Below, in pieces: positions 5,015-60,664 of a stretch of DNA of 64,000 nucleotides; the stretch's first letter is position 1; the number at the start of each line of letters is the position of its first letter. The stretch covers positions 372,001-436,000 of the forward strand of contig NZ_CP107811.1 in the NCBI RefSeq assembly GCF_036346105.1. Direction: 5' to 3'. Source of the DNA: Streptomyces sp. NBC_00539 (lineage in GTDB: Bacteria > Actinomycetota > Actinomycetes > Streptomycetales > Streptomycetaceae). A model generated the notes under the pieces. That model did not search any database, had not been told where the DNA came from, and worked only from the letters and a program-made list of their open reading frames with translations. A program made the translations under genes and the position numbers.

Positions 5015-5869
5015 TTAGGATCCGTAGAGGAATTGCCGTACGGATCTCAGAACGTGTTCCGTTGCGTCCGCATGGCACATGTGGCCGGCCCCCGCGATGA
5101 CTTCGCCGGTGCCGAGCACGACCGATTCGGTCAGCAGGGCGACGTGCTCCGGACCTGCCCATCCGTCCAGGTCCCCGGCGAGAGCCAGGGTCGGGCACCT
5201 GACGGCGGGAAGGTGCTCCATCTCCCGGTGGAGGACGGGAAAGACGATTTCGTTGAAGTAACGCAGGGCGTCCACGTTGGCGGACCACCCGGCCAGTCTC
5301 GCCTGCCAGGCGGCGAGGCGGTCCGTCATCGGCCCGACCCACAAGGGGATCACCTCGGCGATGAGCCGGCCGAGGCCCGCGTCGTCCGCGGGATAGGCGT
5401 CGCCCTGCGCCTCCAGCGCGGCGAGGGCCCGCGCGACGGCGGCTTCCGAATGCCGGGCCCGGTGAAACGCGTCCGCTTGCGCCTCCGCCCGGTCCCCTCC
5501 GTACGCCGGAGTGCCCAGCAGCACGAGTCTGCGCACCAGGTCCGGGTACCGGGCGGCGGTCAGCGAGGCCACCGCGCCGCCATGGGAGTGGCCGAGCAGG
5601 TCCACCGGGCCGCCGCCCGCCTCGCGCCGGATCCAGGCCGCGAGGTCGGCGGCGTAGGACTCCAGCGCGTAGTCCCCGTCCGCGGGGCGCGGGCTGGACC
5701 CGGCTCCCCTCGGGTGGACGATCGCCACCGTGCGGCTGTCCGCGAGGCCGTCCAGCGGTTCGAGGTACCGGGGATCCATGCCGGGCCCTCCCGGGTGGCA
5801 CACGACCAGCGGGCCGCTGCCGCGCCAGGTCGTGGCGAGCGGTACGACGGCGGGCGGCGCGGGGGCCAT
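5015..5869 (-). CDS. Proline iminopeptidase-like alpha/beta hydrolase
   Basis: 284 residues. HPGGPG near the N-terminus is the oxyanion-hole motif of the proline iminopeptidase branch, and DLLGHSHGG is the nucleophile elbow with the catalytic Ser. A C-terminal GAGHMCHADA supplies the likely catalytic His. The start overlaps the MFS stop by one base (TGATG), so exporter and hydrolase are co-translated. In biosynthetic islands such hydrolases often trim an N-terminal residue or hydrolyse a product; here it might process the peptide made by the ATP-grasp enzymes or act in resistance. That role is inference. Confidence 0.82.
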   Translation of the reverse strand: MAPAPPAVVPLATTWRGSGPLVVCHPGGPGMDPRYLEPLDGLADSRTVAIVHPRGAGSSPRPADGDYALESYAADLAAWIRREAGGGPVDLLGHSHGGAVASLTAARYPDLVRRLVLLGTPAYGGDRAEAQADAFHRARHSEAAVARALAALEAQGDAYPADDAGLGRLIAEVIPLWVGPMTDRLAAWQARLAGWSANVDALRYFNEIVFPVLHREMEHLPAVRCPTLALAGDLDGWAGPEHVALLTESVVLGTGEVIAGAGHMCHADATEHVLRSVRQFLYGS

Positions 5870-7149: not shown

Positions 7150-7413
7150 GGTGTCGCGATCACCTGCTGCTCATCTCCTGAGGGCGAAGGTGAAATGAAA
7201 AGGTCCCGGACAGCCTGACATGTTGCCACGCGCGGACGCCCTGTGGAAGTCTCCCGGAGATCACCGATATCCGTGAACAAGTCCGAAGTGGCCGGAAATC
7301 ACGCATGGATGGAATGGGAATCCGACCCGGTGGCGATCTTTTTGTCGTCGACTTGTGGCCGACCTGGTTCCGGCCGTCTTTACACCCCTGGAACGCACGA
7401 GGAGAAGACCCCT

Positions 7414-8730
7414 GTGACCACACCCGGACCAGTACCGCCGGATCGCCGTGATCTCGACGTCCTCTATCTCGGATGGCAGCGCGAGGCCGTCGAAGCGCTT
7501 CGGGATCTCGGGGCCGATGTGACCTGCGTGGTCTCTTTCCCTGACCGCTTCAAGCCATCCGAGGAAGGATTCACGGGTGTGGTCGCGGTCGCCCGCGACC
7601 ACACGTCGGTGGAGGAGGTGCTCGGCGCCCTGGCCGATCTGCGTCTTGCGCCGTCCGCCTTCCTGACCGTGTGCACCGAGGACGAGTTCGCGATCGTGAC
7701 AGCCTCCGTTCTCGCGGAGCTCGGCTGCCCGCAAGCCTTCCTCACCCCCGCCGTCGCGCTGGCCCTGCGCGACAAGGGCCTGCAGAAGCAGCGGGTACGG
7801 GACGCCGGGCTGCCGGTGGCGGACAGCATGCGCTTTTGCGGCCTGGACGCACTGGCCGGGGCCGTGGAGAGCGGTTCGGTCGCACTCCCCCTCGTGGTGA
7901 AGCCGCCGGCCGGTGCCGGCTCGGTCCACACCCGGGTCGTCCACGACCCGGCGGGACTCGCCGCCTTCGCCCGGGACGTGGGGGACGCCCCCGGGCCCTG
8001 GCTGGTCGAGTCGTTCGTCCCCGGCGAGGAACTGCACGTCGACGGAGCCGTCCGCGACGGCCGGACGGTGGTCGTGTCGGTGAGCCGGTACCTGCACAAC
8101 GTGGTCGAGGTGCACCGGGGCCGGCTCGTCGCCTCCGCCACCCTGGACGCCTGCTCCGACCATGCCTTGTCGGATGCGGTGGCCGCTTTGACCGAACGTG
8201 CGCTGCGCGCGATCGGACACGCCGACGGGGTGTTCCACCTGGAGGCGTTCCATGACGACGGCGCCCTCGTCTTCGGCGAGTGCGCCGGGCGCATCGGCGG
8301 CGGCATGATCCTGGAGGCGGTACGAGGGAAGTACGGAGTGGACCTCTACCGGGAATGGGCCGCGGCGGCCCTCGGCCTGCCCTCCCCGGCGGCGGGCGGC
8401 GGCGCGCCCGGTACCGGTCCGGAGCCGGAGAAGGACTCCTTCGGATGGGTCAATCTGGCCGCGCCACCGGGCCGGATCCGGCTCCTGCCTTCGCAGACGT
8501 CCATGGAGAACCGGCCGGGGGTGGTCCAGGCGCAGCTCTGGGCCAAGGAGGGCGACCGGATCGGGGACATGCGCGAGGGCTCCCACCTACTGGTGGCGAA
8601 GGCCTTGGTACGAGCGCCCGCCGAAGCGGTGGTACGGGAACGGCTGGCCGAGGTCGGGCAGTGGTTCTCGGCGGCCCTGGAGATGGAGCCCGCGCCCGTC
8701 GCCGACGCAGAGGGCGGTTCGGATGTCTGA
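7414..8730 (+). CDS. ATP-grasp ligase (carboxylate-amine ligase type)
   Basis: 438 residues. The open frame starts earlier at 7243, but the GTG at 7414 has a clear site (GAGGAG at 7400) and is where conserved sequence begins. The fold order is a pre-ATP-grasp Rossmann-like region with LDVLYLGWQREAVEAL, then LRDKGLQKQRVRDAGLPV, the ATP-binding lysine in VVKPPAGAGSVHTRVV (about residue 163), VESFVPGEELHVDG and the metal-binding FGECAGRIGGG (E289). It is distinct from the PGM1-type ligase at 2.8-4.1 kb, so the island has two different ATP-grasp enzymes. The 3-prime end overlaps the next gene by 8 bp. Amide formation between amino acids is inferred. Confidence 0.83.
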   Translation: MTTPGPVPPDRRDLDVLYLGWQREAVEALRDLGADVTCVVSFPDRFKPSEEGFTGVVAVARDHTSVEEVLGALADLRLAPSAFLTVCTEDEFAIVTASVLAELGCPQAFLTPAVALALRDKGLQKQRVRDAGLPVADSMRFCGLDALAGAVESGSVALPLVVKPPAGAGSVHTRVVHDPAGLAAFARDVGDAPGPWLVESFVPGEELHVDGAVRDGRTVVVSVSRYLHNVVEVHRGRLVASATLDACSDHALSDAVAALTERALRAIGHADGVFHLEAFHDDGALVFGECAGRIGGGMILEAVRGKYGVDLYREWAAAALGLPSPAAGGGAPGTGPEPEKDSFGWVNLAAPPGRIRLLPSQTSMENRPGVVQAQLWAKEGDRIGDMREGSHLLVAKALVRAPAEAVVRERLAEVGQWFSAALEMEPAPVADAEGGSDV

Positions 8731-9895
8731 CGCCCGCGAGCCCGAGGTCCGCACGCTCTCGCTCGTCCAGGCCGGGAAACTCGCCCCCTGGGCCGCCCTG
8801 TGCGGCTCCGCGGACCTGTTCTGCACCCCGCGGTGGCTGGCCGTGGAGCAGGCGGCCGTCGGTCCCTGGGTGCCGACGGCGGCCCGGTGCCTGACCGTTC
8901 CGGCACCCGCGTCCGGGGCTGCCCCCGTGGCCGCCGTGGACGGCGAGCGGCTGCTGGCGGGGATCACGGTGCAGCGCTTCGACCGGTCCGTCGACGACGA
9001 CACGGTCCGGCTCGACAAGATGCTGGCCCCCGGGGCGGGCACGAGCGCGCGGGAACTGGCCGGCGTGCTGCAGCCGTCCCTGATGTGCGGCGGATGGTTC
9101 AACTCCCGGGTGCTGACCGCCCCCGGCATGCCGGAGCGGCAGCGCCGGCCGGCACGCCGCTCCCTGATCCGCGCCGCGATCAGCACCGCGAGGTCCTGGG
9201 ACTGCCCGGCCGTCTTCCTCCCCTACGTGGACGCGGCCGACCGAGGGCTGCGCTGCGATCTGCGTGCGGCGGGGTTCACGGAGTTCCCGGCTCCGGCCCG
9301 GCACGTCTTCGACTGCGGCTTTCCCGGGCACGCCGCCTACGTGGAGACCCTGCCCTCGCGGCGCAAGGTCCGGCTGCGCAAGGAGCTGCGGCGGTTCGCC
9401 GAGGCCGGGGTGGTCACTGCGCACTCACCGCTCGACGAATCCAACGTGGAGCGGATCGCGGCCCTGGCGCACGGCCTGGAGCAGAAGTACGAACAGGTCT
9501 CCTCGCAGAAGCAGTTGACGCAATGGTTCGCCGCGATCGCGGTGAACACCGACGCGACCGTGTTCACCGCAGCGCTGGGGGGCCGGCCGTTCGCCATGTC
9601 GATGTGGCTGCGCCACGAGGAGCGGCTCTACGGCTTCCACGCGGGTTTCGACTACGAGGTCGGCGTGGGCCTGCCCGGGTACGCGGTGGTCGGGTACCAC
9701 CTTCCCATCGCGTACGCCTGCGACGAACCGGGCCTGACGACGATGGAGTACGGGATCAGCGCGGACGAGGCGAAGCTGCTGCGCGGCACCGAGGCGATGC
9801 CGCAGGTGCTGGCCGTCAAACCGCTGACCGGGCCGGCCGAGCGGGCGCTCGCCGCTTGCGCACCTGCGGAGCCCGACGGGGACCGGCTTCCCTAG
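8723..9895 (+). CDS. FemAB/BioF2-like GNAT-fold acyltransferase
   Basis: 390 residues, starting at an ATG inside the end of the ATP-grasp gene (8-bp overlap), so co-translated. The central part FDCGFPGHAAYVETLPSR followed by RRKVRLRKELRRF, and later PFAMSMWL, GFHAGFDYEVG and YGISADEAKLLRG, are typical of the peptidoglycan-type FemAB/BioF2-like superfamily. Members transfer amino acids from aminoacyl-tRNA, or other acyl groups, to amines. Together with the two ATP-grasp ligases it is a third candidate amide-bond enzyme in the island. Whether it uses tRNA or acyl-CoA is not visible. Confidence 0.75.
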   Translation: MSDAREPEVRTLSLVQAGKLAPWAALCGSADLFCTPRWLAVEQAAVGPWVPTAARCLTVPAPASGAAPVAAVDGERLLAGITVQRFDRSVDDDTVRLDKMLAPGAGTSARELAGVLQPSLMCGGWFNSRVLTAPGMPERQRRPARRSLIRAAISTARSWDCPAVFLPYVDAADRGLRCDLRAAGFTEFPAPARHVFDCGFPGHAAYVETLPSRRKVRLRKELRRFAEAGVVTAHSPLDESNVERIAALAHGLEQKYEQVSSQKQLTQWFAAIAVNTDATVFTAALGGRPFAMSMWLRHEERLYGFHAGFDYEVGVGLPGYAVVGYHLPIAYACDEPGLTTMEYGISADEAKLLRGTEAMPQVLAVKPLTGPAERALAACAPAEPDGDRLP

Positions 9896-9935
9896 CCCGG
9901 CGGGCACGGGCGGCACCGGCCCCACCGGGACCGCG

Positions 9936-10577
9936 TCACCGCGGCCGGTGGTGTGCTCGGGCCTCGGCGGCGGCCTTCAGGTCGTTGAGCCAACCTTCGA
10001 GTCCCCGGCGCAGGATGGCGGTCGCGGTGGGGACGTCGGCGTCGACCTGGGGGCCGGTGTGGGTCTCCTCCGTGCTCACCCTGACACCTCCCCGGGTCTC
10101 GGTGAAGTTCCACACGTGGACGCCGTCGATGTGCAGTCCCTCGCCGATCGCCGGGCCCGTCCAGCGGATGCAGGAGTGGTGCCCGAGCTGTGCGACGGTC
10201 GAGGTGATCTCCAGACTTGTGGCCGGAGTCGGATTGGGGGGCACCGGAGTTGTCCACCGGAAGGCCGAATCCCGGCGGAGGGGGCCGTGGTCGAGGCGTT
10301 CCGCGGTCGTCACGGGAGCCTGCCAGGACGGCCAGCGCTCGATGTCGGTCTGCAGTTCCCAGACCGTGCGCAGCGGGGCGTCGATGAGGATCTCGGCCCG
10401 GTGCCGGACGCCGGCGGCCGGGTCGACACCGGCCCCGCGGCAGGTGAGGGACGGGGCGGGGTGGGGGCCGTGGGGGACGGCTGCGCCGGCGGGTACCGCG
10501 GTGGTGCCGAGGAGGCCGACGACGAGCGGGATGGTGAACAGGGCGGTGCGGATGCCGGTGCGGCGGATGCCGGTCAT
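9936..10577 (-). CDS. Secreted SRPBCC-family (START-like) protein
   Basis: 213 residues from an ATG at 10577 with binding site GAAGGAG; an upstream in-frame extension is unlikely. A Sec-type signal peptide is visible (TGIRRTGIRT then a hydrophobic core ending AVPAGAA). The mature part has the SRPBCC pattern: AEILIDAPLRTVWELQTDIE, ERWPSWQAPV, HSCIRWTGPA and a C-terminal helix GLEGWLNDLKAAAEA. These domains form a deep cavity for hydrophobic ligands; an exported version is less usual. It is convergent with the acyltransferase gene and has its own control region with a long inverted repeat (10650-10704). Confidence 0.8.
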   Translation of the reverse strand: MTGIRRTGIRTALFTIPLVVGLLGTTAVPAGAAVPHGPHPAPSLTCRGAGVDPAAGVRHRAEILIDAPLRTVWELQTDIERWPSWQAPVTTAERLDHGPLRRDSAFRWTTPVPPNPTPATSLEITSTVAQLGHHSCIRWTGPAIGEGLHIDGVHVWNFTETRGGVRVSTEETHTGPQVDADVPTATAILRRGLEGWLNDLKAAAEARAHHRPR

Positions 10578-10649
10578 GGAACACTCCTTCGGCGTTCGCC
10601 GGGGCACGGACGTGCGGCGTGCGGCGCGGGGCAGAGGCTCAAGCGATGA

Positions 10650-10704
10650 TGAGAAGGTATAACGCGACTTCGTGAGAGGCAATAGACTGCGTGATACCTT
10701 CTCA
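10650..10704. promoter_or_regulatory. Inverted repeat in the control region of the secreted SRPBCC gene
   Basis: Arms at 10650-10665 and 10689-10704 carry the same 16-nt unit TGAGAAGGTATMACGC in opposite orientation (first 11 bases identical, one mismatch overall), separated by 23 bp. It lies about 75-125 bp upstream of the SRPBCC start and 46 bp past the sigma gene end. It looks like a pair of regulator half-sites; no regulator is assigned. Confidence 0.55.
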
Positions 10705-10752
10705 CCAAACGAGCGCGCCACCACGCCGCGATCAGGACAACGGCCGCGCCCT

Positions 10753-11670
10753 TCAGGAGAGTTCGTGCCGCGTGCCGCCCGCGACGGCGTGCAGCTTGTC
10801 GGGGTTTGCCACGTTGTGGATGGCCGAGATGCGGCCCTCCGCGTCGAAGTCGAAGGTCAGCGTCGCGATCACGCGGTCCGGGCCGCGGAAGACCACCCCC
10901 GGGCCGCCGTTGATCCAGGTCAGCTCCGCCCGCATCTGACCGGGCTCGACGCCCTGGTAGGCCACCGTGCCGAGCGCGGCGAACCAACGGGCCACCGTCT
11001 CCAGGCCGACGACCGGCTTGAGTGCCTGGCGGACCTTGCCACCGCCGTCGGTCCACAGCGTCACGTCCGGGGAGAGCACCTCCATGAGGGTGTTGATGTC
11101 ACCGCCCGTCGCCGCCGCGAAGAAACGCTCGCTGGCCGCGCGTTGGCTGGCGCGGTCCGCCGGGAAGCGGGGCCGACGGGCCTGCACGTGCTCGCGGGCG
11201 CGGTGCGCGGCCTGCCGGACCGCCGGCTCGGAGCGTTCCACCGCCTCCGCGATCTCCGCATAACTGAAGGCGAAAGCCTCCTTCAGGACGAACACCGCCC
11301 GCTCCAGCGGGCTCAGCGTCTCCAGGACGACCAGCAGGGCCATGGAGACGGAGTCCGCCGCGGCGACGCCGTCGGCGGTGTCCGGACCGGTGAGGATCGG
11401 CTCGGGCAGCCACGGTCCCACGTAGGTCTCGCGCTGGTGGCGGGTCGAACGCAGCCGCTCCATCGCCAGGTTGGAGATGATCCGGGTCAGGTAGGCCTTG
11501 GGGTCGGCGACCTGGGAGCGGTCGGCCGCCGACCACTTGAGCCAGGCGTCCTGGACGACGTCCTCGGCGTCGGCCGCCGTACCGAGGATGCGGTAGCCGA
11601 CGGAGAAGAGCAGGGTGCGGTACTGCTGGAAGGCGAGCTCGTCGGGGCCGGTCTGCTGCGGCTGGGTCAC
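10753..11670 (-). CDS. ECF41-group RNA polymerase sigma factor with SnoaL-like C-terminal domain
   Basis: 305 residues from a GTG at 11670 that overlaps the upstream stop (GTGA). Sigma-2 (DELAFQQYRTLLFSVGYRIL, then DAEDVVQDAWLKW) and sigma-4 (LSPLERAVFVLKEAF, then SYAEIAEAV) are followed by a SnoaL-like domain. The three signature motifs of the ECF41 group are present: WLPEP in the linker, DGGGK, and NPDKL near the C-terminus. In this group the C-terminal domain replaces an anti-sigma factor and controls activity. ECF41 genes typically sit beside a carboxymuconolactone decarboxylase, oxidoreductase or epimerase; here the partner is the flavin oxidoreductase immediately upstream. Confidence 0.93.
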   Translation of the reverse strand: MTQPQQTGPDELAFQQYRTLLFSVGYRILGTAADAEDVVQDAWLKWSAADRSQVADPKAYLTRIISNLAMERLRSTRHQRETYVGPWLPEPILTGPDTADGVAAADSVSMALLVVLETLSPLERAVFVLKEAFAFSYAEIAEAVERSEPAVRQAAHRAREHVQARRPRFPADRASQRAASERFFAAATGGDINTLMEVLSPDVTLWTDGGGKVRQALKPVVGLETVARWFAALGTVAYQGVEPGQMRAELTWINGGPGVVFRGPDRVIATLTFDFDAEGRISAIHNVANPDKLHAVAGGTRHELS

Positions 11671-46981: not shown

Positions 46982-47890
46982 TCACGTCAGCGCCGCGGCC
47001 ACCAGTGCGGCCGTAGCGGCGAGCAGGGGCTCGTCGGCCGGCGCCGTCGGGTCGTGCTTGGTGGAGAGGACCGCGACCGCGACCGGTCCTCGGCCGGGCG
47101 GCCGGGCGATGCCCACGTCGTTGGTGGTGCCGTAGCTGCCCGTGCCGGTCTTCTCGGCGACCGTCCAGTCCTTCGGCAGTCCGGCGCGCAGGCGGTTGCC
47201 GCCGGTGGTGTTGCCCTGCAGCCACCCGGTCAGCCGTTCCCGGTCGGGCCTGCCGAGCGCGTCCCCGACGGTGAGCCGGGCATAGGTGCTGCCGAGGGCG
47301 CGCGGGCTGGAGGTGTCGCTCGCCCTTCCCGGTTCCGCGGAGTTCAGCGCGGGCTCCCACCTGTCGAGCCGGGTCACTCGGTCGCCGATGGACCGGCAGA
47401 AGCGGGTGACGGCGTCCGGACCGCCGAGTTCACGCAGCAGGAGGTTGCCGGCGGTGTTGTCGCTGTGGTCGATGGCTGCCGCGCACAGGTCCGCGACGGT
47501 CATGCCGTGTGCGAGGTTCTCGGGCAAGCCCGTGACCGGTGCGTAGCCGGACTCCGTGACGTCCTTCTTCGTGTACCGGATGCGATGGGCGAGGAACGTG
47601 CCGTCGCGGTCGAGGTCCCTGAGCACCGCGGCCACGGCGAGCGTCTTGAAGGTCGAGCACATGGGGAACAGCTCGTCCGCGCGGTACAGCACCGCCTTGC
47701 CGGTGACGGTGTCTCGCCCGAAGACCCCCAGTCGTGCCGAATGCGCCCGCTCCAGCGCACGCAGCCGGCCGGTGATCCCCTCTCCCTCCGCGCCCTTCGC
47801 GAAGGCGCGTCCCCCCGCGGGGAGGACGACAGCCATAGCGGTGGCGGCAACCGCACCGAGAACCCGACGCCGACTGGAGCGCAGAACCAT
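46982..47890 (-). CDS. Class A beta-lactamase
   Basis: 302 residues from ATG 47890 (site GGGGAAG). N-terminal SSRRRVLGAVAATAMAVVLP has twin arginines and a hydrophobic core, so Tat export is likely. All catalytic motifs are present: STFK with S79 and K82, SDN in DHSDNTAGNLLL, the omega-loop Glu in WEPALN and KTG in EKTGTGSYGT. It should hydrolyse beta-lactams; streptomycetes commonly carry such genes. No BlaI-type dyad like those at 34.8 kb was seen before it. Confidence 0.95.
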   Translation of the reverse strand: MVLRSSRRRVLGAVAATAMAVVLPAGGRAFAKGAEGEGITGRLRALERAHSARLGVFGRDTVTGKAVLYRADELFPMCSTFKTLAVAAVLRDLDRDGTFLAHRIRYTKKDVTESGYAPVTGLPENLAHGMTVADLCAAAIDHSDNTAGNLLLRELGGPDAVTRFCRSIGDRVTRLDRWEPALNSAEPGRASDTSSPRALGSTYARLTVGDALGRPDRERLTGWLQGNTTGGNRLRAGLPKDWTVAEKTGTGSYGTTNDVGIARPPGRGPVAVAVLSTKHDPTAPADEPLLAATAALVAAALT

Positions 47891-50790: not shown

Positions 50791-52019
50791 GGGATCTCCA
50801 GGGTCACTGTGGTCGGTCCGCCCTGCGGGCTGTGCAGGGCGAGGCTCCCGTCGAAGGTAGCCAATCGGGCCCGGACACCGAGCAGTCCGGTCCCCCGGGC
50901 GGGATCCGCCCCGCCGCGCCCGTCGTCGGTGACGGTGACGCGCAGCCGCCCCTCGCCGTGGGCGAGGACGATGTCGACGCGGTCGCCGCCGGAGTGTTTC
51001 GCCGCGTTGGCCAGCAGCTCGTTGACCGCGAAGTAGGCGGCTGATTCGACCGCGGCCGGCAGCCGTCCCGCCAGGCGGACCTCGACGTGCACGTCGAGGA
51101 AGCTGTCGAGGGCCAGGGAGCGCACGGCATCGCCCAGGCCCCGGTCGGTGAGGACCGGCGGCTGGATGCCCCGGACCAGGTCGCGCAGGTCCTCCAGGGC
51201 CCGTGCGGACAGTTCGCGCGCCTCCAGCAGCGCCGCGCGGGCGGCCGGCGGATCGTGCAGCAGGCGCGTCGCGCCGTCGAGGCGCATCCCGAGCGCGACG
51301 AGCCGGGCCTGGGCCCCGTCGTGCAGGTCCCGTTCGATGCGCCGGAGCTCGTCCGCCCGGCCGTCCAGCGCGACGGCCCGGGAGTCCGTCAACTGCTCGA
51401 TGCGGCGGACGAGTTCGGTCGTACGGGGCGCGGCGAGGAGCAGCCGGCTCCAGCGCGCGTGCAGGCGCAGCACGGCGGGGGCCAGGAGGAGAGCGGCAGC
51501 CGTGAGGGCGACGCCCAGGAGCAGCGCCGCGAGCATGCCGGCGGTGCTGCGCACGGGGACGAACGCGTACCAGTTGCCGTCGCCCAGCAGCCGCCACACG
51601 AACGGCTGGACGAACGCCCCGAACGCCCCGTACACGAGGAGCGACGGCGGCACGGCGAGCAGCGGGCCGCCGGCCAGGGGCTCCAGCCAGGCCCAGCCCA
51701 GGTCGCGCCAGAACCCGGCGTCGGCCAGCACCGCGCGGGCCCCCGCCGTCCGCGGGAGCGGGGCGGGCGGGCTGACCGGCACCCCCGACCAGCGCGCGGC
51801 CCGCTCCCGGGCCCGGTCGGCGCACCGGCGCAGCAGGGCCGCAGCGGGTGGCAGCAGCCGGTGGCCGATGCCGACGGGCAGCAACAGCAGCGCTCCGACG
51901 ACGGCCGGTCCCGCGCAGGCCGCCACCACCAGGCCGAGCAGTCCGGCCAGGTGGCAGCGGCCGACGGCGGTCAGGGCGTGGAGGGTCCCCGCGCGGGAGC
52001 GGGCGGCGATCGAACTCAT
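50754..52019 (-). CDS. Sensor histidine kinase (HisKA_3/DesK type)
   Basis: 421 residues from ATG 52019. N-terminal half has membrane helices (HLAGLLGLVVAACAGPAVV, LLVYGAFGAFVQPFVW, GMLAALLLGVALTAAALLLA). The dimerisation motif RRIERDLHDGAQARLVALGM holds the phospho-His, and the ATPase has NELLANAAKHSGG and VTDDGRGGADPARGTGLLGV. Partner of the overlapping LuxR-type regulator. ATGA overlap with the CPBP gene. Signal unknown. Confidence 0.94.
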   Translation of the reverse strand: MSSIAARSRAGTLHALTAVGRCHLAGLLGLVVAACAGPAVVGALLLLPVGIGHRLLPPAAALLRRCADRARERAARWSGVPVSPPAPLPRTAGARAVLADAGFWRDLGWAWLEPLAGGPLLAVPPSLLVYGAFGAFVQPFVWRLLGDGNWYAFVPVRSTAGMLAALLLGVALTAAALLLAPAVLRLHARWSRLLLAAPRTTELVRRIEQLTDSRAVALDGRADELRRIERDLHDGAQARLVALGMRLDGATRLLHDPPAARAALLEARELSARALEDLRDLVRGIQPPVLTDRGLGDAVRSLALDSFLDVHVEVRLAGRLPAAVESAAYFAVNELLANAAKHSGGDRVDIVLAHGEGRLRVTVTDDGRGGADPARGTGLLGVRARLATFDGSLALHSPQGGPTTVTLEIPCASSLPKTSSS

Positions 52020-52849
52020 GTCCCGTGCAGGGTAGTCGGCGCGGGCGCGGTCTCCGACGCGGGCGCCGGGGCCACCGCCGACGCGCGCCGCCGCCCCCGC
52101 ACCCATGCCAGGGCCACCACGAGGCAGGAGAGCCCGAAGCAGAGCATCGGCGTGACCGCCCCCGACTCCTCGTCCAGGAAGAGGAGCAGTCCGAGGTTGA
52201 CGAGCGTGTGGAAGCCGCCCGCGAGCAGCAGCCGGTACGGACCGCCCGTACGGTCGAGGGCCACGCCCAGGACGACCGACATGGCCACGGTGGCGACGAG
52301 GAAGCCCGCGGCGTAGGCCGGGGCCTGGGCGAAGACCGGTACGTGCCAGGCACCCCACACCACGCCCACCGTCACCGACGAGGCGAGGGTCCCGAACCGG
52401 GTCCGCAGCAGCGGCTGGAGGAAGCAGCGCCAGCCGATCTCCTCTCCGCACGCCCCCGCCAGTTGCGCCATCGCGATCAGGGCGAAGGGGTGGTGCAGGG
52501 CCCCCGGCGGAGTGGAGCCGACGCCCCCGCGGAGCGTCCCGTACGCACCCACGGTGAGCGCGACGATCAAGGCGGCCGACCCGAGGAGTGCCACCGCCCG
52601 CCCGCCGCCCCCGCGCCGGCCCCCGCCCCGCAGCAGTTCGCGGGTCCGCCTCCACCGGTACAGGGCGATCGCGCCCACCCCCGCGGCCGGCCCGAACTGG
52701 GTCAGCTGCACCACCTCGGTGGGCACGCCGGTGGCCGGCTGTACCGCCCCCAGCACCCCGGCCGCCAGGAAGGCCACCGCGGTGAACACCCCCGCCGCAC
52801 CCCACGTCCCGCCGCGCCCCACCCGTTCCACGCCGTGCGCCCTCGCCAT
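52016..52849 (-). CDS. CPBP-family intramembrane metalloprotease
   Basis: 277 residues from ATG 52849 (a longer start at 52933 is less likely). Multi-helix membrane protein with the CPBP/CAAX motifs: GACGEEIGWRCFLQPLL (EExxxR), VVWGAWHVPVFAQAP (second motif with His) and GGFHTLVNLGLLLF (third motif). First gene of the operon with the two-component system, so it may take part in the sensing or response. Bacterial CPBP proteins include self-protection and peptide maturation enzymes. Confidence 0.88.
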   Translation of the reverse strand: MARAHGVERVGRGGTWGAAGVFTAVAFLAAGVLGAVQPATGVPTEVVQLTQFGPAAGVGAIALYRWRRTRELLRGGGRRGGGGRAVALLGSAALIVALTVGAYGTLRGGVGSTPPGALHHPFALIAMAQLAGACGEEIGWRCFLQPLLRTRFGTLASSVTVGVVWGAWHVPVFAQAPAYAAGFLVATVAMSVVLGVALDRTGGPYRLLLAGGFHTLVNLGLLLFLDEESGAVTPMLCFGLSCLVVALAWVRGRRRASAVAPAPASETAPAPTTLHGT

Positions 52850-53099
52850 GACCGTCCCGCCCGTCCGTCCGTCCGTTTTCCCGACGGGTACGACGATGCC
52901 GGGCACGGCGGCCCCGGACACTGCACCCGGCACCCGGGCGGGGGTGCACCCAGGTCCAACCCGGACCGGGTCCGTTCGGCGGCGCCGCCGACACCATCAC
53001 CCACCTGCGGGAGAGCCTTGGAGTGCCCAACATCGTGCGGGTGCACGGCCGGGGCGCCCCGTCTTCCGTGACGACCCGCGCTTGAGGGCACTGTTCGCC

Positions 53100-55712
53100 C
53101 TAGCGGCGGGTGTCCACCACCGCCAGGAGTTTGCCGCTGGTCGGGCTGCGGTCCAGCGAGGCGCCGTCGACCGTCTCGACCACCAGGTCCAGCAGTCGTT
53201 CGGTCACCGCTGCGCGCAGTTCCGGGTAGCCGGTCAGGAGGACCTCCCGGAGCCGCTCCGGGTCCGTCGTCCCGCCGCGCTCCACCCGCACGGTGAGCCG
53301 CTCGCGCGCGTCCGCCGCCTCCAGCCGTATCTGCAACTCGCCCCGGTGGCCTCCCCGTTCCTCGGCCAGGGTCAGGATGCGGCGGTGGTTGAGGAAGTAC
53401 GTCGCCACCCGCATCACGTCGCCGGTGCGCCCCATCAACTCGAAGCGCGGTGCGTGCCGCCCGCAGGCGCACCGGCCCGGGACCTCCCGACCGAGGTCGC
53501 CTATCAGGTACCGGCCCAGTTGCTGGCCGCGCCGGGCGTGCGTGGTGAAGACCAGCCGGCCCGTTTCGCCCGGGGCCACCGGCCGGTCCTCGGTCAGGTC
53601 GACGATCTCCATCGTGTGCAGGTCGGCATGCAGGTGGTGGACGCCACCGGAGCTCTCGGTGCACTGGTACCCGAGCGGGCCGAGGTCGGTGCTGCCGTAG
53701 GTGATCGAGTGGACGACCTCGATGCCGAACCTCTCCTCAAGGGCACTGCGCTGCTCGCGCGTGAAGTGCTCGCCACCGTAGAAGATCTTGCGCAGTCCGC
53801 CGTACGCGCGCAGCGCGTCCTCCTCCGCGTGCAGGAGCTGCCAGAGGTAGGAGGGCATTCCGAACAGCGTGTCGGCGCCGTGGTCGATGACGGCCTGCGC
53901 GGTGGCCCTGTGGTCGGGCCCGGCCGAGAGCGGCAGTTGGACTCCGCCCAGGCGTTCCAGTACGGAGAAGAAGCTGATGAAGCTGCCGTACATGGCGCCG
54001 CAGTAGAAGAGGTTGGCGGTGCGGTCCCCGACCGGGTCGTAGCCCGCGGCGAGCAGGCCGCGGGCGGCGGCGTGCATCTGGGTGTCGTAGTCGTCGTAGC
54101 TGAAGACCGACAACGCCGGGGCGCCGGTGCTGCCGCCGCTGCGGAAGAACAGCTCGGCGTCGGCCCGCGCCAGCTGCCGGCCCTGCTCCTGTACGTCCTC
54201 CTTGCCCCGGAGCGGGCCCGTGGGCCGCGGCAGGACGACGGGGCGGGCCAGGTCGTCGAGACAGGCGGTGGTCGCGAAGCGGGCCGGGTCGGCCTGGACC
54301 GCGACGCGGCGGCTGTAGCGCTGCAGGGCGTACACGCCGTCGTGGGGTTCGCCCGCGTAGCTGTCCAGCATGGAGCCGACCGGCGTCACCCGGGTGACGC
54401 CGGCGGCCAGGGCAGTACGGGCGAGCTCGGCGATGTCGGTGGGGCTGCCCGCGAGGCCGGCCGTCTGCAGGTAGCGGCGCATCGGGCGCAGGGTGGCGAT
54501 CATCCGCTTGCGGGGCAGCGGTTTGACCCACACGCTGCGGTGCAGGGGTGAGGCGGCCAGCGGCGAGCGGGTGTCGGCCATCACCCGCCACGAGCCGTCC
54601 GGCGCGGCGAACACCCGCGTCAGCCCCAGGTGCTCCTCCAGCCGGGCCACCAGTTCGGTGGTGGTCAGCTCGGCCTCCTCGGCGGGGTCCGGGCCGTCCG
54701 CCCCGGCGGCGGCCGCGGCCGGCGGCCGGGACGCGAGGACCGGGGCGAAGCGCTCGGCGAAGGCGAACACCTCGGCCTCGTCCTCGGTGTCGAGGTAGAC
54801 GACCTGGGGGCTGGAGCACGCCTGCTGCTCGTGCAGGCACACATCGGCCGCGAGGGCGTCGAGCATGTCGGCGTCGGACCAGGCGTCGGCCGTGAGGTAG
54901 GCGAAGGAGATGCGGTGTCCCCACTCCACCAGCCGGCAGCCGGGCGGGACATGGGCCGCCACCCCTTCGACGGCGCCTTCGCCGCCCCAAACGGCCACGG
55001 CGTCCGCGGGCGCGCACATCAGGCGCAGCCACTCCTGCCTGGAGGACGCGAAGCGCAGGACGACGATCCGCGCGGCCAGTGCGCCGCTGGGGTCCAGGGC
55101 GGCGAGTTCGGCCATCAGGTGCTGGGTCAGCAGGGTGTCGGCGCTGCTGGTCTTGAGGATGTTGACGTTTCCGGCGAGCAGGCCTTCGACGATGCTGAGC
55201 GGTGCGACCGTCGCGCTGTTGCCCGGCGCGATGTGGGCGACCAGGCCGACGGGGGCCCAGGCCTCGTAGACCGTTTCGCGCGGATCGGCCCGGTCCAGCC
55301 GGCCGGGAGTCGCGCTGCCGAGCTCCCGGCGGAGCTTGCGGGTGAGCTCGCGACGGCCGAGGGCGCCACCGAGCTCCGCCAGGACGGCCGGGTCCTCCCC
55401 GTCGGGCAGGTGGGGGGCGAGCCGGGCGTGTACGGGGTGGGCCGGGTCGCACAGGGCGGTGGCGAGGGCGTCGCAGGCGGCCAGGACCGTCTCGGTCTCC
55501 AGCACAGAGGCGAGCGCCGCCTCCACGGCGGCCGGCAGGTCGACCAGGCGGCGCCCGGCCTCCTCGTCGCCGATGAAGGCGCCCTGCCAGTAGTGGTGCG
55601 CGACGGCGGAGTCGCGCTGCTCATCCTGGGACGCGGCCACGCTCCGGCGGCCGGTCGCGGTGTCTGTCGCGTTGTCGGTCGCGGTGTCGGTCACCGTCGG
55701 GGTCTCGCTCAC
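53100..55712 (-). CDS. LuxC-type acyl reductase fused to a CapK/PaaK-type adenylating ligase
   Basis: 870 residues from GTG 55712 (GTGA overlap with the LuxE gene). After a Thr/Asp-rich start, residues ~45-440 match LuxC: VGLVAHIAPGNSATVAPLSI, GLLAGNVNILKTSSADTL, and the catalytic Cys C299 in QQACSSPQVVYLD. Residues ~480-870 are an AMP-forming domain of the CapK/LuxE/PaaK group: FFRSGGSTGAPALSVFSYDD near 525, YGSTDLGPLGYQC and YLIGDLGREV, plus CACGRHAPRFELMGRTGDV. One chain could thus activate a carboxylic acid and reduce it to an aldehyde with NADPH. It is the last gene of the five-gene operon and fuses roles carried by separate proteins in LuxC/LuxE systems. Confidence 0.88.
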   Translation of the reverse strand: MSETPTVTDTATDNATDTATGRRSVAASQDEQRDSAVAHHYWQGAFIGDEEAGRRLVDLPAAVEAALASVLETETVLAACDALATALCDPAHPVHARLAPHLPDGEDPAVLAELGGALGRRELTRKLRRELGSATPGRLDRADPRETVYEAWAPVGLVAHIAPGNSATVAPLSIVEGLLAGNVNILKTSSADTLLTQHLMAELAALDPSGALAARIVVLRFASSRQEWLRLMCAPADAVAVWGGEGAVEGVAAHVPPGCRLVEWGHRISFAYLTADAWSDADMLDALAADVCLHEQQACSSPQVVYLDTEDEAEVFAFAERFAPVLASRPPAAAAAGADGPDPAEEAELTTTELVARLEEHLGLTRVFAAPDGSWRVMADTRSPLAASPLHRSVWVKPLPRKRMIATLRPMRRYLQTAGLAGSPTDIAELARTALAAGVTRVTPVGSMLDSYAGEPHDGVYALQRYSRRVAVQADPARFATTACLDDLARPVVLPRPTGPLRGKEDVQEQGRQLARADAELFFRSGGSTGAPALSVFSYDDYDTQMHAAARGLLAAGYDPVGDRTANLFYCGAMYGSFISFFSVLERLGGVQLPLSAGPDHRATAQAVIDHGADTLFGMPSYLWQLLHAEEDALRAYGGLRKIFYGGEHFTREQRSALEERFGIEVVHSITYGSTDLGPLGYQCTESSGGVHHLHADLHTMEIVDLTEDRPVAPGETGRLVFTTHARRGQQLGRYLIGDLGREVPGRCACGRHAPRFELMGRTGDVMRVATYFLNHRRILTLAEERGGHRGELQIRLEAADARERLTVRVERGGTTDPERLREVLLTGYPELRAAVTERLLDLVVETVDGASLDRSPTSGKLLAVVDTRR

Positions 55713-56857
55713 GCCATGCCCTTCATCAGTTCTGCTGCGGCCACCGCGCAGCTGCGGTTGCGGCTCACCCCGGCGCGGCCGTGGACGGTGAACCAGGGGG
55801 TCTCCAGCTCGCACCCGCAGGCGTCCCCCGGCCGGAGGGAGGCGAGGTCGCCCATGACCACGCTCTGGGCCGGCACGGAGGTGATGTACGGCGACACGAG
55901 GTGCAGGTAACCCGGCTCCCCGTAGGGGACGGGTTCGAGCGTGTGGGTGGAAAGGATCGTCACCCGGGACCAGACGGGCGCGTGCAGCCGGTGGTGGTCG
56001 CACTCGATGTACGGGATGCAGTGCTCCACCGACCCGAAGGTGTCGCGGATGCGCTCACCGGGGATGCCGAGCTGCTCGGTGACGCGCGCGTACAACTCCT
56101 CCTTGCCGATGCGCCGGTCGGCGTGTCCCTTCCAGCCGCCGCCGAGGACGACGAGGGAACCCTCGGGCAGGCGCAGCGGGGGCAGTCCCATGGCCCGCAT
56201 CCGCTCCAGGGTGAAGAAGAGGAAGGCGGGGAAGCCCAGGATGCGGACCGGGGCGTCCTCCCGCTCGAAGCGGCGCAGCGCGGCGATGCAGCCGAAGGGG
56301 TCGAACTCGTGGTCGCCGCCGGTGTTGCGCAGGGCGTACTCGACGCTGCGTGCCGGGGCGAAGTCACACAGGTAGTTGTCGGTGAAGGCCGTCCCGAGGT
56401 TCAGGGAAGGGGCCGGTTCGTAGCTGTACAGGAGGTAGTTGACCTCCTGGTCCGGGGTGATCCACCCGTTGCGCTCGAAGATCCGGGCGACCATGCGCTG
56501 CGCGGAGCGGATGGTCCAGTGGTCGAAGAACATCTGCGACTTCTGGCCGGTGGTCCCGGAGGAGGTCAGGTGCAGCTCGACCTCCTCGCGCGGGATGGAG
56601 AGCACCTCGTGCCGCTTGAAGAAGTTCGCGTGGACGAGCGGCGCCCGGTACGGGTGCGCCTCGGGGGTGGCCTCGTACAGGGAGCGGAAGAACGGGGAGC
56701 GTTCGGTGTGCCAGGCGTTGGTCTCCGCCATGGCGGCGGCGAACAGTTCGTCCTGCTCGGGGCCGTGGGCATAGGGGTCGGTCAGGTCGCACAGCTGTTG
56801 CACGTGCGGCAGGAGGGCCGGGTCGGGTACGGCGACCGGCGCGAGATGGGGGTTCAT
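55709..56857 (-). CDS. LuxE-type acyl-protein synthetase/adenylating ligase
   Basis: 382 residues from ATG 56857. LTSSGTTGQKSQMFFDHWTI (about residues 98-118) is the adenylation loop, followed by NYLLYSYEPAPSLNLGTAF, GGGWKGHADRRIGKEE and DTFGSVEHCIPYIECDHHRL. The size and these motifs fit LuxE, which activates an acid as acyl-AMP and may hold it as a thioester for reduction by LuxC. Overlaps both neighbours by 4 bases. It would supply acyl groups to the downstream LuxC domain. Substrate may be fatty, aryl or amino acid; not visible. Confidence 0.9.
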   Translation of the reverse strand: MNPHLAPVAVPDPALLPHVQQLCDLTDPYAHGPEQDELFAAAMAETNAWHTERSPFFRSLYEATPEAHPYRAPLVHANFFKRHEVLSIPREEVELHLTSSGTTGQKSQMFFDHWTIRSAQRMVARIFERNGWITPDQEVNYLLYSYEPAPSLNLGTAFTDNYLCDFAPARSVEYALRNTGGDHEFDPFGCIAALRRFEREDAPVRILGFPAFLFFTLERMRAMGLPPLRLPEGSLVVLGGGWKGHADRRIGKEELYARVTEQLGIPGERIRDTFGSVEHCIPYIECDHHRLHAPVWSRVTILSTHTLEPVPYGEPGYLHLVSPYITSVPAQSVVMGDLASLRPGDACGCELETPWFTVHGRAGVSRNRSCAVAAAELMKGMA

Positions 56858-57999
56858 GGGGCAACCTCGGATGGTGTGGGCAGGTGCGTCGACGCCCAGG
56901 CCGACACGTAGCAGTCCAGGTACGGCTGGAGGGGCGGCTCGACGGCGACTCCGCGGAAGTCGATCCGTTCGCTGGAGCGGGAGAGGACGGCGTAGTCGTG
57001 GAAGCCGTCGCCGTCCGCGCGCATCGCCGGGTAGAGGGCTCCGGCGACGAAGCCCTGGGCCAGGAAGGCGCTGAGGGCTTCGGTGTGTGCGAGGGGGACC
57101 AGGGCCTCCACGTAGCCGGCTCCGGCCCTGGCCAGGGCCCGGGTGACGGGTGCGAGGTGGGCGGCGGCCGCCGCGGGGTCGGGGTGGGCGGTCAGCAGCG
57201 AGCAGTACCCGCCGGCGCGGTTGAGATAGGCGTACACCTCGAAGCGGCCGTCTTCGGGGGTGAGCAGTACGTTCGGCGTGTGCAGGGGGTAGAACCAGCC
57301 CTCGGCCCCGGGGAACCGCTCGCGGAAGCGGCGTCGTACGAAGGCCGGTGCCTCGATCATCTCCAGCCGTTCCGCGGCCCCTTGGGGAGCGGGTTCCCCG
57401 AGCGGGCCGGAAACGGCCCTGACCCCGGGGTAGGTGATGCCCAGCGCGTCCTCGCTGGTGCGCAGCAACGGCATGACCGGGGCGGGGACTTCGGCTACCG
57501 GGATCCGGCGGTCGAGCACCCCGGCGGAATGACGCGCGTAGAGTGCGAGGCTTTCGCGGCTGCTGAGGTCCACCGCGTTGGGCAGGATGCCGAGCGGGCG
57601 GAAGCCGTTGCGGGCGACGACGCGCTGCGGCCCGGCGCTGACGGTGCGCACGGTCGCGTAGACCGAGTCCAGCCGCCCGGTGTCCAGCATCTCGCCGCAC
57701 AGGGCTCCGGTCAGTGCGCCGGCCACGCCCCCCGAGCGGTGCCCGGGGTGGACGGCGATGCCTTCCAGGCGGCCGATGCGGCTGCCCGCGTCGCCGCGGA
57801 TGACGGCGGACGCCGTCAGGGCCCCGGTGCCGGGGCAACGGCCGACGAGCCAGAGGGAGTGCGGGTCGGCGATGAGGCGGGCCATCTCGGCCGGGTCGGT
57901 GCCGAGGGCCACGGGGTAGTGCGGCCCGTAGACGGCGTAGTAGAGCTGGCGCAGTTCGGCGATGTCCTCGCGGGTGGCCGGGGTGATGACGGGGTTCAC
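56854..57999 (-). CDS. GNAT-family N-acyltransferase, two-domain
   Basis: 381 residues from GTG 57999. The first ~150 residues are a GNAT domain with ITPATREDIAELRQLYYAVY and the acyl-CoA loop GIAVHPGHRSGGVAGALTGA. The second half (about 200-381), with VEVYAYLNRAGG-like FEVYAYLNRAGGYCSLLTAH and VEALVPLAHTEALSAFLAQG, is a second GNAT-like fold lacking the canonical loop. It may transfer an acyl group to an amine of the aldehyde or acid intermediate. In the LuxC/LuxE operon it overlaps genes on both sides. Confidence 0.82.
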   Translation of the reverse strand: MNPVITPATREDIAELRQLYYAVYGPHYPVALGTDPAEMARLIADPHSLWLVGRCPGTGALTASAVIRGDAGSRIGRLEGIAVHPGHRSGGVAGALTGALCGEMLDTGRLDSVYATVRTVSAGPQRVVARNGFRPLGILPNAVDLSSRESLALYARHSAGVLDRRIPVAEVPAPVMPLLRTSEDALGITYPGVRAVSGPLGEPAPQGAAERLEMIEAPAFVRRRFRERFPGAEGWFYPLHTPNVLLTPEDGRFEVYAYLNRAGGYCSLLTAHPDPAAAAAHLAPVTRALARAGAGYVEALVPLAHTEALSAFLAQGFVAGALYPAMRADGDGFHDYAVLSRSSERIDFRGVAVEPPLQPYLDCYVSAWASTHLPTPSEVAP

Positions 58000-59369
58000 C
58001 GCTCACCCCCCACGGGTTCCGCGTCCCGGTCCGCGGCCGCCCCGGGCGGCGGCGCGGGGGTGTGGGGGCCCAGGAGGGCCAGCGCGAGGGCGGCGGGGAG
58101 CAGGCCGGCGCCCTGCACGAGGCACAGGGTGCGGGGTGAGAGGAAGTCACCCGCGGCGCCGAAGAGCAGGGACGCCACCGGTAGTGAGGAGCCCAGGACC
58201 GCCTGCATCACGGCGAAGAAGCCGGGCTTGTCCGCCGTCGGCACCAGACGCTGGAAGAGGGCGACGAAGCGGACGCTGACGGCCCCCGCGCACCAGCCGG
58301 ACACGGCCAGGCAGCCCGCGATGACCATCCGGTGGGCGACCAGCCCGGGCAGCGCCAGGGCGAGGGCCATGAGACCCAGGCAGTACGCGCCCGCGACAGT
58401 GGGGCGTCCCGGTACCCGGGCGCCGGTGAAGGCGCCGATGAGCGCGCCGGTGCCGAGGGAGGCCTCCAGCAGGGCCACGGTGGCGCCGCCCCCGGAGAGG
58501 ACCGAGCGGGTGTAGAGGGGGATGACGACGAAGACGGCGGTCGTGAAGAGGTTCGCGGCGGTGAAGCAGACCAGGATCCGCCGCACGTACGGCAGTTCGC
58601 GCAGGATGTGGAGCAGCCCGCGGCGCCGGGGTGCGCCTGACGGGTCGGCCGGGCCTTCCGCGGCGGGCGACGGCTCGGGTGCCGTGGTGCGGAAACGGGC
58701 GCTCGCGACGAACAGGGCGGCGCCGAGGTAGGCAGCCGCACAGCCCACGGCCAGCCCGGCCACTCCTGCCCGGTCGACGGTCAGGGCGCCGAGCAGCGCT
58801 CCCCCGAGGCCGGCCAGGGACTGGGTCGACAGCTCGAAGCCGGTGGCCGCCTCGATGTCGGCGTCGTCGACGAGTTCGGGCACCGAGGTGGTCAGGCAGG
58901 GGTCGAAGAACGCCTGGCAGGTGGCCAGGGCGACGGCGGCGGCGTAAACGGCCGTGAGGGGCAGGACGCCGTCGTACGCCCACAGTGCGAGGGCGCCCGA
59001 GGCGGCTCCGGCGAGGACGGCGGCGGTCCGCAGCACCGAGCGGTGGGCGAAGCGAGCGATGACCCCGGCCACGACGGGCGCCAGCGCTACGGCGGGCAGT
59101 GTGCAGGCCGCCATGAACAGCCCCGAGGCAAGGCCCCGGGCGTCGTTGACGGCGTAGGCGACGATCCACCAGGACACACCGACCTGGAACATGCGCACGG
59201 CGGCCTGGGTGAGGACCTGCCCGAGCCACACGGCGGCGAAGGCGCGGTTGCGCAGGACCAGCGGGGCGCGGCGGCCGGTGGTCCGGGCACCCCCCTCGGT
59301 ACCGGTCTCCTCGACACCGGTCTCGTCGGTACCGGCGGTCGCGGGCGGGCGCGCGGGCGCGGCGGTCAT
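57996..59369 (-). CDS. MFS transporter
   Basis: 457 residues from ATG 59369. Twelve-helix pattern after a Thr/Gly-rich N-terminus: FAAVWLGQVLTQAAVRMFQV, GLASGLFMAACTLPAVALAP, and LRTAAVLAGAASGALALWAY. It belongs to the MFS branch with efflux/enterobactin-exporter-like members. Overlaps the CapK stop (ATGA) and the GNAT start (GTGA). Probably exports the operon product. Confidence 0.9.
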   Translation of the reverse strand: MTAAPARPPATAGTDETGVEETGTEGGARTTGRRAPLVLRNRAFAAVWLGQVLTQAAVRMFQVGVSWWIVAYAVNDARGLASGLFMAACTLPAVALAPVVAGVIARFAHRSVLRTAAVLAGAASGALALWAYDGVLPLTAVYAAAVALATCQAFFDPCLTTSVPELVDDADIEAATGFELSTQSLAGLGGALLGALTVDRAGVAGLAVGCAAAYLGAALFVASARFRTTAPEPSPAAEGPADPSGAPRRRGLLHILRELPYVRRILVCFTAANLFTTAVFVVIPLYTRSVLSGGGATVALLEASLGTGALIGAFTGARVPGRPTVAGAYCLGLMALALALPGLVAHRMVIAGCLAVSGWCAGAVSVRFVALFQRLVPTADKPGFFAVMQAVLGSSLPVASLLFGAAGDFLSPRTLCLVQGAGLLPAALALALLGPHTPAPPPGAAADRDAEPVGGER

Positions 59370-60664
59370 GCGGTCGGCCTCTCGTCGAGGACCCGTACGA
59401 GCTTGCCCGTGCGGGGGTTCACGGCGAGGTCGCGGTGGCGTGCCCATTCCACGGTCGGCGGGTGCACGAACCCGGCGCGCACGCTGTCGGGGTAGAGCGG
59501 TCGTGCGGTTTCCAGCTCGGCGAGGACGGCTTGCGCCAGGGTCCGCAGGCCGTCTGCGGGCTCACCGCACGCCCCGCTCGAAGCGCCGTCGTCGCCCGGT
59601 GCCGTCGCCAGCCGCAGGACGAGCCCGTCACGGCCGTCCCAGCGCCGCACCACGAGTTGCAGGCCGACCACGCGCCCGGCGGTGTCCGCGGCGGCGACGG
59701 CGTTCTGGACGTCCTGGGTGTAGAGGGAGACCGGCCCGACGCGTACGCCCTCCTCCGCACGACCGAGGATCCGGAAGTGTCCGGGGCCGGTGCCCGTCCA
59801 TTCGGCCCGGTCTCCGGCGGGGAACCGGATGATCGGCATCAGGCGGCGGAAGAGGCTGGTGACGACGACCCGGCCGGGCCGGCCCGGCTCGGTGACGGGC
59901 TCGCCGGTGGCGTCGTCCAGGATCTCCACGACGGTGTACGGCGAGAAGGGCCGGTGCACCCGGGTGTCGGAGCCGGGTACCGGACGGCCGAGCAGCCCGG
60001 CATCAACGCTCGCGTATCCGATGGAACGTGCCTCGGCACGGGGGAACGCGGCGGCCAGCAGGCGCCGCTGGTCCTCGAACAGGGCTTCGCCGCCGAAGAG
60101 GAGCAGTTCCACCGAGTCGAGCCGGACACCTCCGGAGACGACCTGCTCGGCGAGCCGGCACAGGGTGGTGGGCGTGCCGGCCAGGACCTGTGCGGAGAGT
60201 TCGCGCAGTGTGGGGATCGTCGATTCCAGAGGCGCTCCGCCGCCGATGGGCAGGCGGACGTTGTCCACCGGCGCGTGGGCGAGCGAGTCGAGGACGAAGA
60301 GGAAGCTGGCGTACAGCTCCCCGGCGTAGAAGAGGTCGGCCACGCGGTGCCCCGGGCGCAGACCCGCGTCCACGAGCCCCTGTCCGAATGAGGTGACGAA
60401 GGTGCGCCACTCGTCCCGCGTGTAGACGGAGAACTTGGGGGACCCCGTGGTGCCGCCGGTCTTGTAGACGGTGGCCTCGCTGAGCGGGCCGGTCAGGACG
60501 CGGTTGTCGCGCAGGGTGTTGGCCGCCCAGAAGTCCTGCTGGTCGATCACCGGCAGGTCGGTGAGGCGGTCGGCGTGCGGCGGCAGGGACGCGTACAGAT
60601 CACGGTAATAGGGCGAGTTGTGACGGGCGAAACGTATGAGGTCCGGGAGTTGCTGGGCGGACAT
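59366..60664 (-). CDS. CapK/PaaK-type adenylate-forming ligase
   Basis: 432 residues from ATG 60664 (AGGCAAAGG before it); an in-frame extension to 60763 has no conserved sequence. N-terminal LPDLIRFARHNSPYYRDLYA is the family hallmark, followed by the adenylation loop VYKTGGTTGSPKFSVYTRDE (about residues 65-84), VELLLFGGEALFEDQ, and the C-terminal NPRTGKLVRVLDE with the catalytic Lys. It activates a carboxylic acid as AMP ester, possibly transferring it to CoA or a protein. First gene of the operon with LuxE and the LuxC fusion, so the cluster has three adenylating domains. Confidence 0.9.
   Translation of the reverse strand: MSAQQLPDLIRFARHNSPYYRDLYASLPPHADRLTDLPVIDQQDFWAANTLRDNRVLTGPLSEATVYKTGGTTGSPKFSVYTRDEWRTFVTSFGQGLVDAGLRPGHRVADLFYAGELYASFLFVLDSLAHAPVDNVRLPIGGGAPLESTIPTLRELSAQVLAGTPTTLCRLAEQVVSGGVRLDSVELLLFGGEALFEDQRRLLAAAFPRAEARSIGYASVDAGLLGRPVPGSDTRVHRPFSPYTVVEILDDATGEPVTEPGRPGRVVVTSLFRRLMPIIRFPAGDRAEWTGTGPGHFRILGRAEEGVRVGPVSLYTQDVQNAVAAADTAGRVVGLQLVVRRWDGRDGLVLRLATAPGDDGASSGACGEPADGLRTLAQAVLAELETARPLYPDSVRAGFVHPPTVEWARHRDLAVNPRTGKLVRVLDERPTA

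Follow-up and report, generated by a model that had tools for sequence, protein, structure and literature searches.

Leupeptins are protease-inhibiting peptide aldehydes, long known from Streptomyces and used as standard laboratory reagents, and in Gammaproteobacteria they are made without a nonribosomal peptide synthetase (NRPS). In luminous bacteria, an acyl group is relayed between cysteines of LuxE and LuxC. In grixazone biosynthesis, the LuxC-like GriC and the CapK-like GriD reduce an aryl acid, with no LuxE, GNAT or second ligase known to take part, in the defining context of genes for 3-amino-4-hydroxybenzoic acid (3,4-AHBA) synthesis beside the pair. We analysed a 64,000 nucleotide stretch of Streptomyces sp. 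NBC_00539 (contig NZ_CP107811.1, hereafter the window), in which an earlier note, made from the letters alone, had described a five-gene operon for making, acylating and exporting an aldehyde. The gammaproteobacterial route prompted a comparison with its genes. We propose, with a probability of roughly 85%, that the five genes are a leup-type operon which makes an N-acyl tripeptide argininal without an NRPS, most likely leupeptin and close congeners, and exports it.

The leupABCD genes were described with a transporter gene in Klebsiella oxytoca CAV1374, where the primers for leupA and leupB lie 1,235 bp apart (PMC8283571). The leupeptin cluster of Li et al. 2020 is cited there and in PMC11480411; citing the same work, PMC11212599 states that separate AMP-dependent ligases make the amide bonds and that a reductase makes the aldehyde.

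Relation of the operon to leupABCD

According to open reading frame (ORF) calls and the sequence, the five genes run on the minus strand from 60664 to 53100, in the order CapK1, MFS, GNAT, LuxE and LuxC-CapK2 fusion, and encode proteins of 432, 457, 381, 382 and 870 aa, respectively. The coordinates and 4-base overlaps given in the earlier note agreed with the ORFs and with the sequence at all four junctions, which read, in order, ATGA, GTGA, ATGA and GTGA. The window occupies bases 372,001-436,000 of a 7.07 Mb contig, in a genome of 7.5 Mb. A LuxC search of this genome gave one strong match, that of the operon, and a second one at the family cut-off (21.2 bits).

To find the counterparts of these genes, genome contigs were scanned with a profile of the LuxE alignment, and the best 80 of 547 relatives were taken. 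These 80 were all proteobacterial, with Klebsiella michiganensis DSM 25444, Photorhabdus, Xenorhabdus, Chromobacterium and Pseudomonas among them. The published primers leupA_f and leupB_r matched K. michiganensis DSM 25444 exactly, at 10053-11287, which is the published 1,235 bp; the leupA primer had no match in the 113 loci collected before this one. Because the two primer sites fall within the LuxE ORF and the LuxC-CapK ORF, leupA corresponds to LuxE and leupB to the LuxC-CapK fusion. CapK and GNAT both follow leupB and fill the published span, and would thus be leupC and leupD. The complete order in K. michiganensis is MFS, LuxE, LuxC-CapK, CapK, GNAT, with the MFS gene upstream.

The proteobacterial set consisted of 81 loci, one Salmonella plasmid included. 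All four enzymes, each spanning at least 85% of the length of the Klebsiella query, were present in 76 of them, including Xenorhabdus bovienii (L144) and Photorhabdus. The five loci not counted as complete were three at contig ends (L137, L139, L149) and two with shortened or broken ligases in otherwise leup-like surroundings (L117, Rosenbergiella gaditana, and L175, Xenorhabdus koppenhoeferi), where decay is possible. Two Salmonella enterica IncF plasmids typed as conjugative (L112, L113) carried leup-like LuxE, LuxC-CapK and CapK genes with a shortened MFS-like ORF upstream; GNAT was annotated in L112 only.

Each enzyme of the window resembled its K. michiganensis counterpart. LuxE was 52.5% identical to LeupA and has the C-terminal cysteine, whereas the LuxC and CapK2 parts of the fusion were 37.8% and 43.9% identical to LeupB. 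CapK1, the stand-alone ligase, was 40.4% identical to LeupC. Crossed ligase pairs gave 28.0 and 30.6%, the latter being CapK2 against LeupC. For GNAT, identity to the Klebsiella protein was 29% over 164 aa in the N-terminal half (E 1e-5). Profile-profile comparison gave a probability of 98.0 (E 2.2e-13) over 176 columns in the N-terminal half, and an alignment in global mode gave 98.6 over 291 columns, which is the sole support for the C-terminal half. BLASTP gave no significant match between the MFS of the window and that of Klebsiella, so that the two exporters would be related remotely at most. Among the 76 complete proteobacterial loci, the stretch that was fetched included a Klebsiella-type MFS in 42, and this gene is hence not universal. 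The earlier note knew of no product for this gene set. Elsewhere the set does have one, as it matches a characterised cluster, leupABCD.

The catalytic cysteine of LuxC, placed by the earlier note at C299, is encoded by TGC at 54816..54818 (minus strand) and aligns to the QQAC cysteine of LuxC in PDB 7xc6. Far from being lost in most homologues, it is kept in 49/49 Streptomyces-type and 79/79 proteobacterial aligned rows. In LuxE, C370 (codon TGC, 55748..55750, minus strand), the proposed acyl carrier, is a C-terminal cysteine kept in 49/49 and 81/81 rows, respectively. It aligns to C364 of LuxE in 7xc6, which we take to be the acyl site; profile A1, which contains the window LuxE, matched the 7xc6 LuxE with an E value of 8.6e-29. 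Both ligases have an A10-type lysine conserved at 95% or more in both groups: K421 of CapK1 (codon AAG, 59402..59404, minus strand) and K861 of CapK2 (codon AAA, 53130..53132, minus strand).

A tree of the CapK ligases was built from 87 rows (15 of 42 CapK1 and 18 of 47 CapK2 of the Streptomyces type, 20 of 77 and 20 of 76 from proteobacteria, and 14 of 21 PaaK-like outgroups). Streptomyces-type CapK1 joined proteobacterial CapK1 (100/99), and CapK2 joined CapK2 (100/99). The outgroup was weak (86/28), and no root is claimed. The BLAST identities above agree with this pairing, each ligase being closer to its own counterpart than to the crossed one. The ligase pair is therefore probably older than the split of the two groups, which speaks against convergence. 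Pure convergence was set aside on these two grounds, identity and tree, by which each ligase is closest to its own Klebsiella counterpart.

Proposed pathway

The arithmetic of the gene set fits leupeptin: the single acyltransferase would account for its acetyl cap, the two CapK ligases for its two peptide bonds, and the LuxE/LuxC pair for the one carboxyl that is reduced. From this correspondence we infer each of the following steps, their substrates in this organism, the assignment of bonds to ligases, and leupeptin as the product. First, the GNAT acyltransferase (56854..57999, minus strand), counterpart of LeupD and proposed maker of N-acetyl-Leu, would transfer acetyl, or propionyl, from CoA onto Leu; its Acetyltransf_1 match reached only 23 bits, over residues 24-133 of 381. 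Second, CapK1 (59366..60664, minus strand; AMP-binding, 35 bits in Pfam), a PaaK/CapK-like ligase, would adenylate acyl-Leu and couple it with Leu. Third, the CapK2 domain of the fusion would adenylate acyl-Leu-Leu and couple it with Arg, giving leupeptin acid. The fusion (53100..55712, minus strand), counterpart of LeupB, comprises the LuxC reductase at residues 73-480 approximately (LuxC, 294 bits over 73-468) and CapK2 at about 490-870 (AMP-binding, 40 bits over 513-723). Because CapK2 is fused to LuxC, it is suggested to make the last bond, and the fusion may hand the acid directly to the reductase. Fourth, LuxE (55709..56857, minus strand; LuxE, 87 bits) would adenylate the finished peptide acid, carry it on C370 and deliver it to C299 of LuxC, where the bound acyl group would be reduced with NADPH to the aldehyde. 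Finally, the MFS protein (57996..59369, minus strand; MFS_1 66 bits, MFS_3 52 bits) is the proposed exporter of the product.

The outline drawn by the earlier note, an operon that makes, acylates and exports an aldehyde with LuxC and LuxE as the reductase pair, fits this scheme. Pfam likewise found its three adenylating domains, LuxE counted as one. Its suggestion that three activations mean up to three different acids does not stand as well: a better reading is that a single growing molecule is activated three times, twice for an amide bond and once for the reduction.

Distribution and forms with fewer ligases

In order to see how far the operon extends, 48 regions were fetched, which with the window gave 49 Streptomyces-type loci and covered all strong LuxE places among 393 genomes of the genus. 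Weak LuxE places (in G353, and short fragments in G039, G206 and G207) were not counted as separate loci, and gene starts were set with a GC-frame gene caller made for this analysis. A LuxE match was found in 47 of the 393 genomes, the source genome counted and one match being only weak. At E 1e-60, 48 of 392 genomes of the order had a match, all from a single family and spread over 3 of 10 genera; at E 1e-40, matches in the class came from 3 of 296 genomes, each a member of the genus itself. Full-length relatives of the fusion, at 73-91% identity, occurred in 7 of 60 other genomes of the genus and in none of 39 outside it. The closest named full-length match to the fusion in the plasmid collection, at 87%, was from Streptomyces sp. 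NBC_00158.

The search in other genomes proposed by the earlier note recovered the full order CapK1-MFS-GNAT-LuxE-LuxC.CapK2 in 42 of the 49 loci, window included, and thus a complete cassette in 42 of the 393 sampled genomes. Two more (L077, L105) are cut at contig starts; the other incomplete loci are three without CapK1 (L107, L108, L109) and two with LuxE-LuxC only (L040, L110). The LuxE/LuxC junction is a 4-base overlap in 47 of 49 loci. Most flanking gene clusters were present in just one to three of the 49 loci. Since the order is complete in 42 loci while the flanks vary, the operon is not a chance arrangement, and the five genes seem to make up the entire unit; a larger cluster was rejected on the same ground. 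The gene set, its relatedness to leupABCD, the conserved cysteines and the self-contained cassette are established.

The copies of G365, G294 and G038 are close to one end of a large contig, and other copies are not. One genome has two equally scoring LuxE copies that lie on opposite strands of a single contig, at a great distance from each other (G642:C1:606711-607871 and 7665054-7666214), and which possibly sit in a terminal inverted repeat. Near the operon in the window, two ORFs were judged by eye from their translations to resemble a class A beta-lactamase (46982-47836) and a CAAX protease (52016-52921).

The forms with fewer genes were placed with a LuxE tree comprising all 49 Streptomyces-type rows, L194, L195 and 16 of the 81 proteobacterial rows. 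The four-gene and LuxE-LuxC-only forms fell outside the five-gene clade (99/95), with proteobacteria on the other side. The four-gene form without CapK1 (L107, L108, L109) is predicted to make a dipeptide argininal in genomes of the G286 type; in G286, a CapK1 search at E 1e-15 matched only the operon's own CapK2. Acetyl-leu-arginal is listed among the known small peptide aldehydes in PMC10548850. In some genomes, the missing ligase could be supplied in trans, as G339 and G207 carry both the five-gene and the four-gene form, and G339 has an orphan CapK1 relative (43%) elsewhere in its genome.

The LuxE-LuxC pairs without a ligase (L040 in G003, L110 in G366) grouped in the LuxE tree with a pair from Streptomyces europaeiscabiei (100/100). 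In L040, a large NRPS/polyketide synthase-like region, judged by eye, lies on the opposite strand. The S. europaeiscabiei pair (7439-10017) is on a plasmid (L195, NZ_CP109155.1, region 1559-10259) with MBL-fold and MNIO genes. The MNIO gene matched MbnB_TglH_ChrH with 88 bits, and a YcaO gene on the other strand scored 68 bits. Just downstream of LuxE/LuxC, a 53-aa ORF (10098-10259) contains four (D/E)FPFR repeats, each ending in Arg. This locus has the look of a ribosomal pathway for peptide argininals. PMC12452194, a landscape paper on MNIO, mentions neither LuxC, LuxE nor aldehyde in its main text.

Taken together, these forms allow a tentative generalisation, which we hold with the odds against it: LuxE/LuxC might be a portable reductase of peptide C-termini behind a variable front end, in which the ligase count determines how many peptide bonds are made. 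Two CapK ligases would then give tripeptide argininals such as leupeptin across Streptomycetaceae, one ligase (three Streptomyces-type loci) would give dipeptide argininals such as acetyl-Leu-argininal, and the absence of a ligase, with a precursor of Arg-ended repeats on the S. europaeiscabiei plasmid with YcaO and MNIO, would give ribosomal peptide argininals.

Alternatives and comparison with known systems

Leupeptins were described from actinomycetes in 1969, according to reference titles in PMC10548850 and PMC11212599, and numerous Streptomyces are said to make them (PMC11865988). In Streptomyces cattleya RLe1, leupeptin, an LVR/VLR analogue, Pr-LL leupeptin and strepin P1 were identified by mass spectrometry (MS), as reported in PMC5511137. 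The name S. cattleya now leads to Streptantibioticus cattleyicolor, and strain NRRL 8057 of this species has all five genes in order on its 1.8 Mb plasmid pSCAT, with identities to the window of 63% (CapK1), 59% (MFS), 54% (GNAT), 75% (LuxE), 66% (LuxC) and 63% (CapK2).

The strepin P1 and LVR/VLR analogues of RLe1 also bear on a special case of the leup-type reading, in which the main product is not leupeptin, being instead strepin P-1-like, Val-containing, a lysinal, or built with other residues or another cap. Two supported five-gene clades in the LuxE tree (19 rows, 100/98; 26 rows, 100/96), a window GNAT strongly diverged from LeupD, and the lysine analogue of leupeptin known in Klebsiella are all in its favour. 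However, conserved residues of the leupeptin enzymes recur in both ligases and in the reductase, and many congeners could arise from one promiscuous pathway anyway. We regard such a product as the lesser possibility, though one to be reckoned with.

That Streptomyces leupeptin comes from antipain-type NRPSs, the operon doing something else, is improbable. Two papers favour it: PMC11212599 attributes the leupeptin made by LN699 to an antipain NRPS cluster and refers to work in which these aldehydes share an NRPS origin, and PMC10548850 groups Streptomyces leupeptin with NRPS products and calls the likeness to the gammaproteobacterial pathway convergent. Yet Pfam found no NRPS domain in the five genes, be it condensation, carrier or terminal reductase, and the leup enzyme set is homologous rather than convergent by identities, tree and residues. 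As LN699 makes antipain, a relaxed NRPS could explain its leupeptin. The operon is homologous to leup and may offer another source of leupeptin in Streptomyces; NRPS and leup routes may both exist, in different strains. No paper assigning Streptomyces leup genes was found in the literature searched, which left most subscription journals outside; Li et al. 2020 may mention them.

A GriC/GriD-like or lux-like route to an aryl or fatty aldehyde from three different acids, as first suggested for this locus, is very unlikely and was rejected, since the full gene set matches leupABCD, even though LuxC, LuxE and CapK families act on aryl and fatty acids and sequence searches found solved structures of LuxC and LuxE only in 7xc6, where they are named long-chain acyl enzymes. 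By Pfam, the five genes, to which the check for luxAB was confined, include neither luxAB luciferase, luxD nor another aryl-acid gene, and matches to the NCBIfam LuxC, LuxE and BagE/FevW models were far below their cut-offs.

Several points weigh against the leup-type reading itself. No product is tied to this genome or to any strain shown to use the operon. The S. cattleya link spans two strains and MS-annotated metabolites, and of NRRL 8057 it was pSCAT that was examined, its chromosome not being searched for NRPS. The two papers discussed above credit Streptomyces leupeptin to NRPSs. The assignment of leupC and leupD follows from gene order and span, and a treekit warning applies to the CapK tree, a single build whose joins between long branches may be false whatever their support. 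With a longer GNAT of low identity, a different gene order and unrelated-looking exporters, the substrates could also differ.

If the leup-type reading is true, the five genes offer a marker for genome mining, and the natural versions with one, two and possibly zero ligases are starting points for making peptide aldehydes. A homologous operon in 42 of 393 genomes suggests one old NRPS-free pathway common to two phyla.

The LuxC and LuxE of luminous bacteria (7xc6) belong to the same families, with aligned relay cysteines, but here the five genes include no luciferase or LuxD, a ligase is fused to LuxC, and the proposed substrate is a peptide acid. The antipain and livipeptin systems of Streptomyces, as described in PMC10548850 and PMC11212599, give the same kind of product, peptide argininals, but by NRPS or NRPS/tRNA-dependent enzymes, none of which is among the five genes of the window. 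The leupABCD systems of K. michiganensis, Xenorhabdus and Photorhabdus are closest. They differ in order (MFS-A-B-C-D against C-MFS-D-A-B), in a GNAT shorter by 76 aa than that of the window and in their hosts, the window coming from an actinobacterium. They have the same LuxE, LuxC-CapK fusion, CapK and GNAT in a compact operon, with an MFS gene alongside in K. michiganensis as here, share the conserved catalytic cysteines and lysines, and have ligases that pair one to one with those of the window in the tree. The kind of system was thus already known, and what is new is the Streptomyces home of its gene set.

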